A DNA stretch of 24,131 nt from a virus. The stretch spans positions 1 to 24,131 of IMG/VR virus record IMGVR_UViG_3300046492_000284, one strand, 5' to 3'. The position numbers and the translations under genes are program-made. Below, piece after piece: positions 4,500 to 13,768 of this stretch (position 1 is its first letter; each line of letters opens with the position of its first letter). A model generated the notes under the pieces. The model saw only the letters and a program-made list of their open reading frames with translations, was not told where the DNA came from and ran no database searches.

Positions 4500-4726
4500 C
4501 GCCCGCGGCGCTCGCCCGCCTCCGATGGGCCGCCGAGCAGCCGGCGCCGCCCGTGTCGCGCGAACAGCTCGCCATCGAGGTCCCCGCCCCCTGCACCTGC
4601 GCCCGCTCCTGGGGCCTGCACTCAGCCGGCTGCCCCCGGTGGACACCCGGCCACGAACTGGCCGCGCACCCCGAGCCGCTGTTCCCGCTGCCCGTGCCGG
4701 CCCCGGCCGACCGCACCGCCCCCTGA
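4496..4726 (+). CDS. Hypothetical Cys/Pro-rich protein (76 aa)
   Basis: ATG 4496 overlaps the previous stop. The middle contains APCTCARSWGLHSAGCPRW, a C-x-C-x9-C arrangement with a nearby His that may bind zinc. The remainder is Pro/Ala-rich and probably disordered. It is the last gene of the overlapping run and is followed immediately by a 15-bp perfect stem-loop. Confidence 0.62.
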   Translation: MTPAALARLRWAAEQPAPPVSREQLAIEVPAPCTCARSWGLHSAGCPRWTPGHELAAHPEPLFPLPVPAPADRTAP

Positions 4727-4728
4727 CC

Positions 4729-4772
4729 GCGCCCGGGGTGGCGCCGGCCACCAGACCCGCCACCCCGGGCGC
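4729..4772 (+). terminator. Perfect 15-bp stem-loop upstream of the initiator gene
   Basis: Arm 4729-4743 (GCGCCCGGGGTGGCG) is perfectly complementary to 4758-4772, with a 14-nt loop at 4744-4757. It begins two bases after the stop codon at 4724-4726 and ends 31 nt before the TTG start at 4804. There is no T-run. Position suggests a terminator or attenuator between the small-gene cluster and the replication genes, but the remaining 31 nt hold only the ribosome binding site, so downstream transcription must either read through it or start inside it. Confidence 0.6.
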
Positions 4773-4803
4773 AACCCGCCACCACCCGAACGGAGAACCC
4801 TCG

Positions 4804-5799
4804 TTGACCTGGTTCAAGGTGGACGACACCGCACACAGCCACCCCAAGCTGCTGCGCGCCGGCAACGCCGCCATCGGCCTGTGGCTGCGCGCCGGCTCGT
4901 ACGCCGCACAGCACCTCACCGAGGGCACCGTGCCCGGCGTCGTCGTCCAGCTCTACGGCACCACCCCGCAGGCCGCCAAGCTCGTCAAGGCCGGCCTGTG
5001 GCACGACGCCGGGCACACCTGCTCGCGCTGCCCCCAGCCGGCCACCGGCGACTACGTCATGCACGACTACCTGATCTACAACCCGACCCGCGCGCAGGAG
5101 GAATCCAAGCGCCGGGCCGCCGCCGAGAGGCAGGCCCGCGGGCGCGAACGGCAGCGCGCCGAACGAGAAAACGCCGCGGAATCGTCCGCGAAAACGAATC
5201 GTTCCGAAGTTTTTTCGAGTCAAAAAAGAAGTGAAAGTGCTCCGGAAAAAGACGCGTTTCAGGACGGACCCGCAGGTCAGGACGTGCTGTCACAGCGTGA
5301 CGACACGGGGGCGTCACGCTGGTCCCGTCCCGGCCCGTCCCGTACAGCTTCTCCTTACGGAGAAGCTGCTCCTCCTACGGGCAGCAGCAGCGGCCTACCC
5401 GACCCCCTCGCCGACCTGAAACGCGGCATCGCAGCCGCCGGCCTCGCCGGAATCGCCTGGGACCTCAAGGCGTCCGCGTGGGAATACACCCGGCAGGCCC
5501 TCGACCGCGTCGGCGTCCCCGCCATGGTCGCGTTCGCCGTCAACAGCTCCCGCCTCAAAGGCGCCCCAGCCGGCGCATCCGCATGGGTCGGCGGCTGGCG
5601 GTCCCTCGAACCCGCCCCCGCAGCCGAACCCGGCGGCGAAGTCGCATACCTGCCCGCCGCCGCCGGGGCCGCCCCGGTGCTGCCGTTCGCCGGCCCCCTC
5701 ACCCGTCAGCAGCGCGACCAGGCCGCCACCGACGAACTGTTCGGCGCCGCCATGGAACGCGCCCACCTCCGCATGCAGCAGGAAGGAACCGCAGGATGA
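4804..5799 (+). CDS. Replication initiator-like protein (lambda O-type layout, probable)
   Basis: TTG 4804 is chosen as start: GGAG at 4792-4795 is 8 nt upstream and the protein then begins TWFKVDDTAHSHPKLLRAG, the usual beginning of a phage replication-protein winged-helix domain. Residues 1-95 form that domain, with a CSRC pair at about 73-76. Residues 95-195 are a charged, low-complexity linker, and residues 195-285 form a second helical domain (PLADLKRGIAAAGLAG onward; ASAWVGGWRSLE). The N-terminal DNA-binding domain, linker and C-terminal domain order resembles lambda O and other initiators that bind an origin inside their own gene and recruit a helicase loader. The linker DNA (about 5161-5370) departs strongly from local base composition and is repeat-rich. 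It overlaps the next gene by four bases. Function is inferred. Confidence 0.6.
   Translation: MTWFKVDDTAHSHPKLLRAGNAAIGLWLRAGSYAAQHLTEGTVPGVVVQLYGTTPQAAKLVKAGLWHDAGHTCSRCPQPATGDYVMHDYLIYNPTRAQEESKRRAAAERQARGRERQRAERENAAESSAKTNRSEVFSSQKRSESAPEKDAFQDGPAGQDVLSQRDDTGASRWSRPGPSRTASPYGEAAPPTGSSSGLPDPLADLKRGIAAAGLAGIAWDLKASAWEYTRQALDRVGVPAMVAFAVNSSRLKGAPAGASAWVGGWRSLEPAPAAEPGGEVAYLPAAAGAAPVLPFAGPLTRQQRDQAATDELFGAAMERAHLRMQQEGTAG
5164..5368 (+). other. Candidate replication origin inside the initiator gene
   Basis: Within the linker-coding part of the preceding gene, the base composition switches from GC-rich to A/T-rich (about 5164-5260). Two imperfect tandem units start with GAAAACG (5167-5173 and 5190-5196), each containing GAATCGT followed by CCG or TCCG. 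A T6-CGAGTC-A6 element lies at 5210-5227. Inverted repeats are CGCGGA/TCCGCG (5175-5190), a 10-bp pair at 5293-5302 and 5312-5321, and the perfect hairpin CAGCTTCTCC-TTAC-GGAGAAGCTG at 5345-5368. Iterons plus an AT-rich unwinding element in the initiator gene is the known lambda O arrangement. Origin function is inference. Confidence 0.45.
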
Positions 5800-6443
5800 C
5801 CCCCGACGAGACCGTGATGCTCGCCCGCTACGTCAAAGCCCTCTGCCCGCAGCAGGCGTTCGACTCCCACACCCCCGACGCCTGGCACGACGTCCTCGGC
5901 GCGTACCACCTCGACGACGCCCGGCAAGCCGCCGCCAACCTCGCCGGCCGACAGGCGTTCATCGCGCCCGGCGAGATCGTCCCCGAGATCCGCCGCATCC
6001 GCGACGCCCGCATCGGCGACACCACCCCCGCCTACCTGCCGCCCCGCGAAGACGAGACCGGCGCGCAGTACGTCGCCCGCCGCCGAGCCCAGCTCGCCGC
6101 GATCGCCGACGGCCGCGAGAAGCCCGTACCGATCGGCGCCCTCACCGGAGATCCGCACCCCGACGTCGCCGCCCGGTTGCGGCACATCGGCGACATCCCG
6201 CCGGCCGTCCGCGACGCCATGGCCCCCCGCACCCTGACCGTCAAGGACGGCGAACGGGTCAACGGCCCCGAACGACTGCCCCGCGCCGACGCACTCGCCG
6301 TCGACTGCCCCCGCGCCGACTGCCGCGCACAACGCAACCGCCCCTGCCGCCGCCCGTCCGGCAAGGAGCTGCGCGAGACCGTCCACCACCAGCGGCAAGA
6401 CGTCTACGCCGCCGCCCTCGCCAACCAGGAGATGACCGCATGA
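5796..6443 (+). CDS. Zinc-finger phage protein, possible helicase loader (215 aa)
   Basis: ATG 5796 overlaps the initiator-like stop (ATGA). Residues 1-70 form a compact helical domain (VMLARYVKALCPQQAFD; AWHDVLGAYHLDDARQA; IAPGEIVPEIRRIRDAR) of the type seen at the N-terminus of phage helicase loader or inhibitor proteins such as SPP1 G39P. Near the C-terminus, DCPRADCRAQRNRPC followed by an HHQR segment is a typical phage zinc-binding module (C-x4-C-x6-C and His). Its place directly after an O-like gene fits the O/P pairing in which the second protein delivers the host replicative helicase. The loader role is inferred; the zinc finger is seen. Confidence 0.6.
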   Translation: MTPDETVMLARYVKALCPQQAFDSHTPDAWHDVLGAYHLDDARQAAANLAGRQAFIAPGEIVPEIRRIRDARIGDTTPAYLPPREDETGAQYVARRRAQLAAIADGREKPVPIGALTGDPHPDVAARLRHIGDIPPAVRDAMAPRTLTVKDGERVNGPERLPRADALAVDCPRADCRAQRNRPCRRPSGKELRETVHHQRQDVYAAALANQEMTA

Positions 6444-7522: not shown

Positions 7523-8086
7523 ATGGCACGCAAGCTGAACCACCCCAAGGCCACCACCGCGTGGCGCGTCTGGTCCCGCGTTGACTTCGCCGGACCGAAC
7601 ACCCTTCGCAAGGGCGCACCCGGCCGCTGCTGGGTCTGGACCGGCCCCACCAACGGCGTCGGCTACGGCCGCGTCACGATCAACGGCCGTCTCCACTACC
7701 CGCACCGCGCGGCGTACGAGATGACCACCGCGCCGATCCCCGCCGGACTCCAGATAGACCACCGCTGCCGCACCCGCAGCTGCCTGAACCCCGCCCACTT
7801 GGAGCCCGTGACAGGCTCCGAGAACGTTCGCCGCAGCACTGCTGCCGACGCCGCCCGCATGCGCGCCGCGCTCGTCACGCACTGCCCTGAGGGCCACAAG
7901 TACGACTCGGCCAACACGTACGAAGGCAGCCACGGCCGCAGGTGCCGCGCCTGTAGCCGAGACCGCTACCGCGAGCGCTACGCCAGTGACCCCGAGTTCC
8001 GTGAGCAGCAGCAGACCGCCGCACGCGAGCGGATGCGCGCTCGCCGCGCCCCCCAGCAGACCAACCCCGAGAGGACGGCTGCCTGA
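7523..8086 (+). CDS. HNH homing-type endonuclease
   Basis: The 187-residue protein contains the HNH_3-type core: YPHRAAYE (around 59-66), QIDHRCRTRSCLNPAHLE (78-94) and the following TGSENVRRS. DH at 79-80, N89, H92 and the Cys pair 82/87 are the metal and active-site residues expected in this family. A second Cys/His group lies at about 120-145 (CPEGHKY and GRRCRACSRDR). GGAGA at 7515-7519 gives the start. Such free-standing nucleases in phages cut cognate DNA and spread themselves. It sits between the methyltransferase block and ssb, behind its own leader, with its stop overlapping the ssb ATG by one base, which fits a mobile gene inserted ahead of ssb. Confidence 0.85.
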   Translation: MARKLNHPKATTAWRVWSRVDFAGPNTLRKGAPGRCWVWTGPTNGVGYGRVTINGRLHYPHRAAYEMTTAPIPAGLQIDHRCRTRSCLNPAHLEPVTGSENVRRSTAADAARMRAALVTHCPEGHKYDSANTYEGSHGRRCRACSRDRYRERYASDPEFREQQQTAARERMRARRAPQQTNPERTAA

Positions 8087-8583
8087 TGGCAGGCGACACG
8101 ATCATCCACATCGAGGGCCACCTCACAGCCCCGCCGGAGCTTCGCTTCACAAGCGGTGGCCACGCCGTCGCGTCGTTCACCGTGGCCAGCACGCCCCGCG
8201 TATACGACAAGGCCACCAGCACCTGGAAGGACTCCGAAACGCTGTTCATGCGCTGCTCGGCGTGGCGGCAGTTGGCGGAGAACATCGCCGAGTCGCTGGA
8301 CAAGGGCGCGGCCGTGATCGTCATCGGCCGACTGCACCAGCGCAGCTTCGAGAAGGACGGCCAGCGCCGCACCGTCATCGAGCTGGAGGCCGACAACGTC
8401 GCCCCCTCGCTTCAGCGGGCCACCGCGCAGGTGACGAAGGTGAACGCGCAGGGCAGCAACAACGGCGGCCAGCAGCAGCGCCCCGCGCAGCAGGGCGGCG
8501 GCTGGGGCACCGCGACCGGCGCGACCACCGCGACCGGCAACGACCCCTGGGCCACGCAAGGCCAGCAGTCCCCGCCGTTTTAG
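8086..8583 (+). CDS. ssb: Single-strand DNA-binding protein
   Basis: The 165-residue protein begins with the canonical SSB OB-fold: a first strand with IEGHLTAPPELRFTSGG, then AVASFTVAST, a TLFMRCSAWRQLAENIAESL block and VIVIGRLHQRSFEKDGQRR, ending near residue 110. A Gly/Gln/Asn-rich linker leads to DPWATQGQQSPPF. It would coat single-stranded DNA during phage replication and recombination, alongside the RecT-like protein. The final PPF matches the SSB tail, but the acidic residues normally just before it are missing, which is unusual. The gene is coupled to the HNH gene, with a GAGAGGA ribosome site inside that gene. Confidence 0.93.
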   Translation: MAGDTIIHIEGHLTAPPELRFTSGGHAVASFTVASTPRVYDKATSTWKDSETLFMRCSAWRQLAENIAESLDKGAAVIVIGRLHQRSFEKDGQRRTVIELEADNVAPSLQRATAQVTKVNAQGSNNGGQQQRPAQQGGGWGTATGATTATGNDPWATQGQQSPPF

Positions 8584-13574: not shown

Positions 13575-13768
13575 GGCAAGCCTTCACCGTAGAAGAACGG
13601 CAAGCCTCTGACCTGCACTGATGCGGTCCGGCAAAGTCGCAGGTCAGAAGGTCGGAAGATTTTTTAGAGGGACCGGCCTGGCAGCCCCACGCCCACCTTT
13701 TCTTTTTCTCCCCCCGGCTCTGACCTGCGCGTATGCGATCCCTGGACGCCTGGGGCGGGAGGTATGCG
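13575..13768 (+). other. Non-coding packaging-site (cos) candidate region
   Basis: This 194-bp gap between the HNH nuclease and the small-terminase position holds TCTGACCTGC at 13607-13616 and 13719-13728, and its reverse complement at 13639-13648. The two direct copies sit in a 24-bp imperfect repeat (13606-13629 and 13718-13741, 20 of 24 identical by eye, exactly 112 bp apart). Between them lie an A/T-rich block (GAAGATTTTTTAGAGG, 13655-13670) and a long pyrimidine tract (about 13695-13715). Cos sites in phages with adjacent HNH and terminase genes often occupy this position. The cleavage point cannot be read from the sequence. Confidence 0.5.

Follow-up and report, generated by a model that had tools for sequence, protein, structure and literature searches.

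In iteron plasmid origins, repeated binding sites for the initiator lie beside an A/T-rich unwinding element. In lambda and the lambdoid phages the origin lies in the middle of gene O, with the initiator-binding repeats beside an A/T-rich unwinding element, and the helicase-loader gene P follows directly downstream of O (PMC7466680). For SPP1, the published account places oriL inside gene 38, where direct repeats and an A/T-rich region are found, gives gp39 as the loader and gp40 as the helicase, has gene 39 starting within the end of gene 38, and describes a second origin, oriR, outside gene 38 (PMC6316719). In the extrachromosomal mycobacterial prophages of the Miko type the origin is suspected to lie within or next to repA, the product of which is described as kin of mycobacterial plasmid RepA, and no repeated motifs were identified there (PMC7157519).

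The stretch of DNA analysed here (the window) is a linear virus record of 24,131 bp, with an early region and siphophage structural genes. An earlier note on this DNA had proposed that a replication origin is embedded in the linker of an initiator-like gene; given the conservation seen among homologues, an intergenic copy of the module at one locus (L156, described below) and the disorder predicted for the linker, the proposal now stands as a strong candidate. The linker-coding part of the gene, about 5161-5368, is likely to be the phage replication origin, embedded in the initiator gene in the manner of lambda or SPP1. The features concerned are as follows.

4804-5799, plus strand: initiator gene (331 aa), carrying the module in its linker; profile matches to phrog_30000 and phrog_2447.
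5161-5250, no strand assigned: A/T-rich patch, candidate DNA unwinding element; lowest 90-bp GC of the record, the dip being kept in homologues.
5167-5206, no strand assigned: two imperfect iteron-like units, GAAAACGCCGCGGAATCGT / GAAAACGAATCGT, with GAATCG at 5179 and 5196.
5210-5227, no strand assigned: T6-N6-A6 within the A/T-rich patch.
5271-5279, plus strand: CGCAGGTCA block, near-invariant in aligned Streptomyces-phage relatives.
5289-5321, no strand assigned: GTCAC and inverted repeat CAGCGTGACG/CGTCACGCTG, candidate initiator box of GTGACG type, kept in relatives.
5324-5341, minus strand: C-tract CCCGTCCCGGCCCGTCCC, with four G3 runs on the minus strand forming a G-quadruplex (G4) motif.
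5345-5368, minus strand: perfect 10-bp hairpin with minus-strand loop c(GTAA)g, predicted to fold as DNA on that strand.
5796-6440, plus strand: candidate helicase loader gene, overlapping the 3' end of the initiator gene; same place as the loaders in Eastland and Clarkson.
8086-8583, plus strand: single-strand binding protein (SSB) gene of the same replication module (PF00436, E 3e-25).

The parallel with lambda O drawn in the earlier note is borne out to the extent that the candidate origin elements (5161-5368) lie mid-gene within 4804-5799, with the A/T-rich patch adjacent and a candidate loader gene downstream. However, the repeats are different from those of lambda, the module adds the C-tract/G4 motif and GNNA-loop hairpin on its 3' side, and the initiator is without detectable similarity, in sequence or in fold, to any solved structure. 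The overlap of the loader-like gene at 5796 with the end of the initiator gene is reminiscent of SPP1, whereas no mention of a G-tract or hairpin like those of the window occurs in the passages of the SPP1 account consulted (PMC6316719). With the Miko-type prophages the window shares an actinophage initiator with a suspected origin in or beside its gene, but their RepA is plasmid-related and repeats were not found (PMC7157519). The module also differs from iteron plasmid origins, in that it lies inside coding sequence and the protein belongs to a different family.

The gene order RecT/ERF, initiator, overlapping loader-like gene, HNH and SSB is common to the window and Streptomyces phages (e.g. 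Cumberbatch, Ignacio), and the adjacent RecT/ERF, loader-like and SSB genes are among the grounds for favouring an origin here. At the position equivalent to 5796-6440, Eastland has an annotated ‘DnaC-like helicase loader’ and Clarkson a ‘helicase loader’, while in Appa a DnaB-like gene adjoins the initiator. The 5796-6440 product carries a zinc finger (PF24623) at its C-terminal end; a fold search with it gave no match and a sequence search of the PDB nothing informative, so that its putative role as a loader is assigned from position.

Profile searches match the N-terminal domain and linker of the initiator to phrog_30000 (E 7e-84) and to phrog_2447, ‘replication initiation protein’ (E 1e-46), and relatives of the family occur in 570 phage records of Mycobacterium, Gordonia, Arthrobacter, Streptomyces, Microbacterium and Propionibacterium. 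There was no relevant Pfam match and no informative match in the PDB, either by sequence or by fold; fold matches are to actinophage HTH proteins, with weak similarity to models of phage ‘replisome organizer’ and DnaD-like proteins. In the AlphaFold model a confident N-terminal fold is accompanied by a long basic helix (residues 96-134), followed by disorder over about 135-200 and then by a helical C-terminal part, and the module thus maps to the end of the helix and to the disordered stretch after it. That the encoded stretch is a linker between two domains, as had been suggested, agrees with this model, in which a disordered stretch separates two folded domains at that place.

The A/T-rich character of the segment against a GC-rich background, noticed at the outset, emerges clearly in the numbers. 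At a GC content of 0.456, positions 5161-5250 are the lowest 90 bp in the 24,131-bp record and form its sole cluster at or below 0.50, and by nearest-neighbour energy the least stable 80 bp (rank 1) are 5190-5269, at -1.37 kcal/mol per step where the mean is -1.67. The unusual codon use reported for the linker segment is equally evident, GC3 being 0.38 at residues 119-152 as against 0.97 at residues 1-118; when the peptide was recoded with the codon usage of the window the mean GC was 0.66, and none of 5000 simulations was as low as the observed 0.48. A GC dip near initiator residues 120-135 is seen in many homologues, and in Anatole no other 90 bp of the genome are as low in GC as the module element. 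The T6-N6-A6 element is present at 5210-5227 as had been described, and was not seen in the aligned Streptomyces-phage relatives. The second least stable duplex of the record is at 13590-13669, upstream of an HTH gene at 13733, and the minimum of the cumulative GC skew falls near it; among six complete phages, GC skew gave no minimum tied to the initiator and placed no origin there or elsewhere.

Turning to the repeats, the two units beginning GAAAACG that had been emphasised in the earlier note are indeed present, at 5167 and 5190, but the best conserved parts of the module are instead the C-tract and 3' hairpin, and in near Streptomyces phages the repeated unit is GAATCGTC-like rather than GAAAACG (repeats of this type being significant in relatives L002 and L109). 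The short direct repeats of the window itself are at most modestly or marginally above chance: 7-mer repeat pairs give P = 0.013 when judged by synonymous shuffling, but P = 0.16 if the recoding draws on the codon pool of the window, and the window is absent from the individually repeat-significant genes among the 84 tested upstream of the tract. The case for the module rests on the homologues, where repeats upstream of the tract are significant in 42 of 84 genes, as against 9 of 84 in an N-terminal control. Both of the 10-bp inverted repeats that had been noted (5293-5321 and 5345-5368) are present and perfect. In many relatives the iterons are of the GTGAC class, and the CGCAGGTCA block recurs in the linkers of L003, L032 and a Saccharopolyspora pogona plasmid.

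Repeat families differ by phage group (GTGAC, AGCAA, GTTCGG, TGTCC, GTTAC and GAATCG), and there is a correlation between the type of repeat and the type of basic helix in the initiator, examined over loci L001-L103, L105-L117 and L238-L246. An initiator helix containing GG goes with AGCAA repeats (Fisher P 1e-6, for a class picked post hoc), while an unsupervised partial Mantel test of helix type against repeat type gave r 0.42 (P 0.001), a correlation to which physical linkage of neighbouring sequence could contribute. Within residues of about 96-125 the helix classes pair as AG.GG with AGCAA, RERMR with GTTCGG and RERQRRAR with GTGAC. Judged from sequence, this pairing of helix class and repeat class looks like a recognition code.

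In homologues the order of the module is repeats, A/T-rich patch, CCCGW-type tract and, often, a perfect hairpin, and the tract and hairpin (5324-5368 in the window) are its most consistent part. A CCCGW-type tract is present in 70 of 98 homologue linkers, compared with 22 matches in 879 kb of flanking sequence. The corresponding minus-strand G4 motif occurs in 72 of 100 non-redundant initiator genes, where 20.9 would be expected under synonymous codon shuffling; plus-strand G4 motifs number 4 in the 100 genes, with 0.044 per kb in the flanks. The tract unit varies (CCCGA, CCCGT, CCCCT, CCCGTA, CCCAAA), as do the peptides it encodes (PVPVP, PNPNP, RPDPTRP); it is therefore the minus-strand G runs that are kept, and not the peptide. 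The codon phase of the C-tract is uninformative, as a 5-bp unit cycles through all frames. Among 13 complete phages the 17-bp form of the tract lies in the initiator linker in 10, and in nine of these there is no other copy, the module thus being single in most of the complete phages checked; Raleigh has one looser additional match, SF3 and Anatole have no match to the 17-bp form, and VWB has one unrelated match. When IMG/VR was scanned for four CCCGW units, at least 127 sites were listed, at least 57 of them inside an initiator ORF and at least 4 immediately next to such an ORF and in its orientation. As about half of those listed lie in other settings, a tract by itself is not specific. Among the tracts outside initiators, those at L147, L163, L170, L185 and L193, several of which are followed by AGATCTAGATCC or similar, apparently belong to a distinct repeated element that shares this pentamer.

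As for the hairpin, the region is predicted to fold as DNA on the minus strand with z -2.9, and hairpins with a stem of at least 9 are found in 39 of 100 genes as against 2.3 expected under synonymous shuffling. The loops c(GNA)g, c(GNNA)g and c(TTTA)g are unusually stable in DNA. One or other of these is found on the minus strand in 30 of 43 linker hairpins and in none of 70 flank hairpins, a comparison in which the contrast with the flanks, and not the raw fraction, is the evidence, since the loop classes were named after inspection of the data. A perfect hairpin is lacking in many relatives that do carry the tract, and in five such Gordonia and Mycobacterium phages (L035, L040, L116, L238, L239) a GGTTAC/GGTCAC-like stretch followed by AGGGGG lies 3' of the tract, which is perhaps an alternative 3' structure. 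A search for the composite of tract and loop-class hairpin over 2.66 Mb found 53 elements in initiator ORFs with L156 as the sole exception, a result not to be read as a genome-wide rate since these sequences were chosen for holding initiators or tracts; the composite was likewise present in the initiator of the S. pogona plasmid and in four of the initiator ORFs from the IMG/VR tract scan.

The earlier note had held that DNA repeats conserved where the linker peptide is not would speak for an origin, and nine Streptomyces-phage relatives bear this out: over residues 153-192 amino-acid identity is about 0.55, as against 0.82 in the N-domain, whereas the codons of identical 4/6-fold residues agree at a rate of 0.80-0.86, as against 0.63 in the N-domain. 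The A/T-rich part (residues 119-152) showed no excess of codon conservation in the same nine. Recurrence in homologues, also anticipated, extends to the GC dip and the downstream elements in many of them, but the module is missing from VWB, SF3, Lilac, Crossroads and ArV2, although these phages do possess the initiator, implying another origin or layout in them.

The arrangement differs in L156, where a complete module (8344-8504) occupies the gap between divergent genes, about 6 kb from an initiator gene (1526-2203) in which the N- and C-terminal parts are joined almost without a linker and there is no tract. Here origin and initiator gene would seem to have come apart. The same locus bears on the possibility that the module, rather than being an origin, controls the initiator gene from within, by autoregulation or through RNA-hairpin pausing or termination, as might be thought from its position inside that gene; initiators often autoregulate, and transcription is open to influence from hairpins and from C-rich RNA. 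This seems unlikely, however, as the L156 module lies far from the initiator between two other genes, the GNA/GNNA/TTTA loop rule applies to the minus strand, which is not the one represented in the mRNA, there is no match to an Rfam family, and 4600-6000 contains no plus-strand terminator, a scan for promoters and terminators having given nothing above chance.

In the Propionibacterium phages Anatole, E6 and G4 (L117, L265, L264), as well as in L125, L126 and L216, the reading frame of the initiator closes ahead of the tract. Since an ORF in the +1 frame (E6 gp51) runs across the element in the Propionibacterium phages, the element can be described there simply as outside the initiator's frame. 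Anatole and E6 carry a different repeat type from G4 ahead of the same tract position. The 86-kb plasmid of S. pogona (L261 / NZ_CP031143.1) has an initiator linker with a CCCCT tract and a c(GTTA)g hairpin, and looks like a phage-plasmid in view of its ParA and phage structural genes. As a clean plasmid replicon neither candidate served, the S. pogona match being phage-like and that in Streptomyces NBC_01177 having no tract.

Phages with this initiator differ in how N-domain, repeats and C-terminal part are put together, and boundary sequences are known in mosaic phages. The module might on these grounds be taken for a sequence of recombination or site-specific exchange, either a boundary for domain shuffling or an integration site, but this is highly improbable: it would leave the A/T-rich patch beside iteron-like repeats and the loop class unexplained, and in Cumberbatch, Raleigh and Darolandstone the serine integrase is about 5-6 kb from the initiator gene. 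That the module is a by-product of protein-level selection, i.e. of a proline/arginine-rich disordered linker together with composition bias or a recent A/T-rich insertion, is scarcely credible, for although the linker is disordered in the model and P/R-rich peptides favour C-rich codons (enough for the G4 motif to survive shuffling in the proportion given above), the observed excess of motif and hairpins, codon conservation above that of the N-domain, the differing tract peptides and the intergenic module of L156 all stand against it.

If the linker-coding module is indeed the replication origin, its operation might be envisaged as follows. The N-terminal fold and basic helix of the initiator would bind the iteron-like repeats, among which the GTGACG inverted pair is probably to be counted, and the A/T-rich patch beside them would melt; on the minus strand so opened, the G-rich tract and GNNA-loop hairpin could fold and either keep the strand single or act as a structural signal; the loader encoded by the adjoining gene would then bring the host replicative helicase, with priming and the start of replication to follow. 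More tentatively, though as a serious possibility, this may be an undescribed origin architecture spread over many actinobacterial genera, in which the minus-strand G4 tract and GNA/GNNA hairpin hold the origin open or place the helicase or primase, beside swappable iterons read by a matching initiator helix. What would be new is the addition of the 3' G-tract and hairpin to a layout like that of lambda or SPP1; in the literature searched, which covered few subscription papers, no description of the module or of its tract and hairpin was found, and the exact tract strings are absent from the phage papers in it.

The module is conserved in many viruses of Streptomyces, mycobacteria and their relatives, and very probably marks the point at which copying of the genome starts. 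In the literature searched no mapped origins came to light for the 570 records that have this family of initiator, and for many of these records the module provides an origin candidate recognisable from sequence. It could also supply small replicons for actinobacteria, while the pairing of repeats with initiator helix, taken together with the G-tract and GNNA hairpin, raises the question of what structure in single-stranded DNA contributes to the initiation of replication where genomes are rich in GC.
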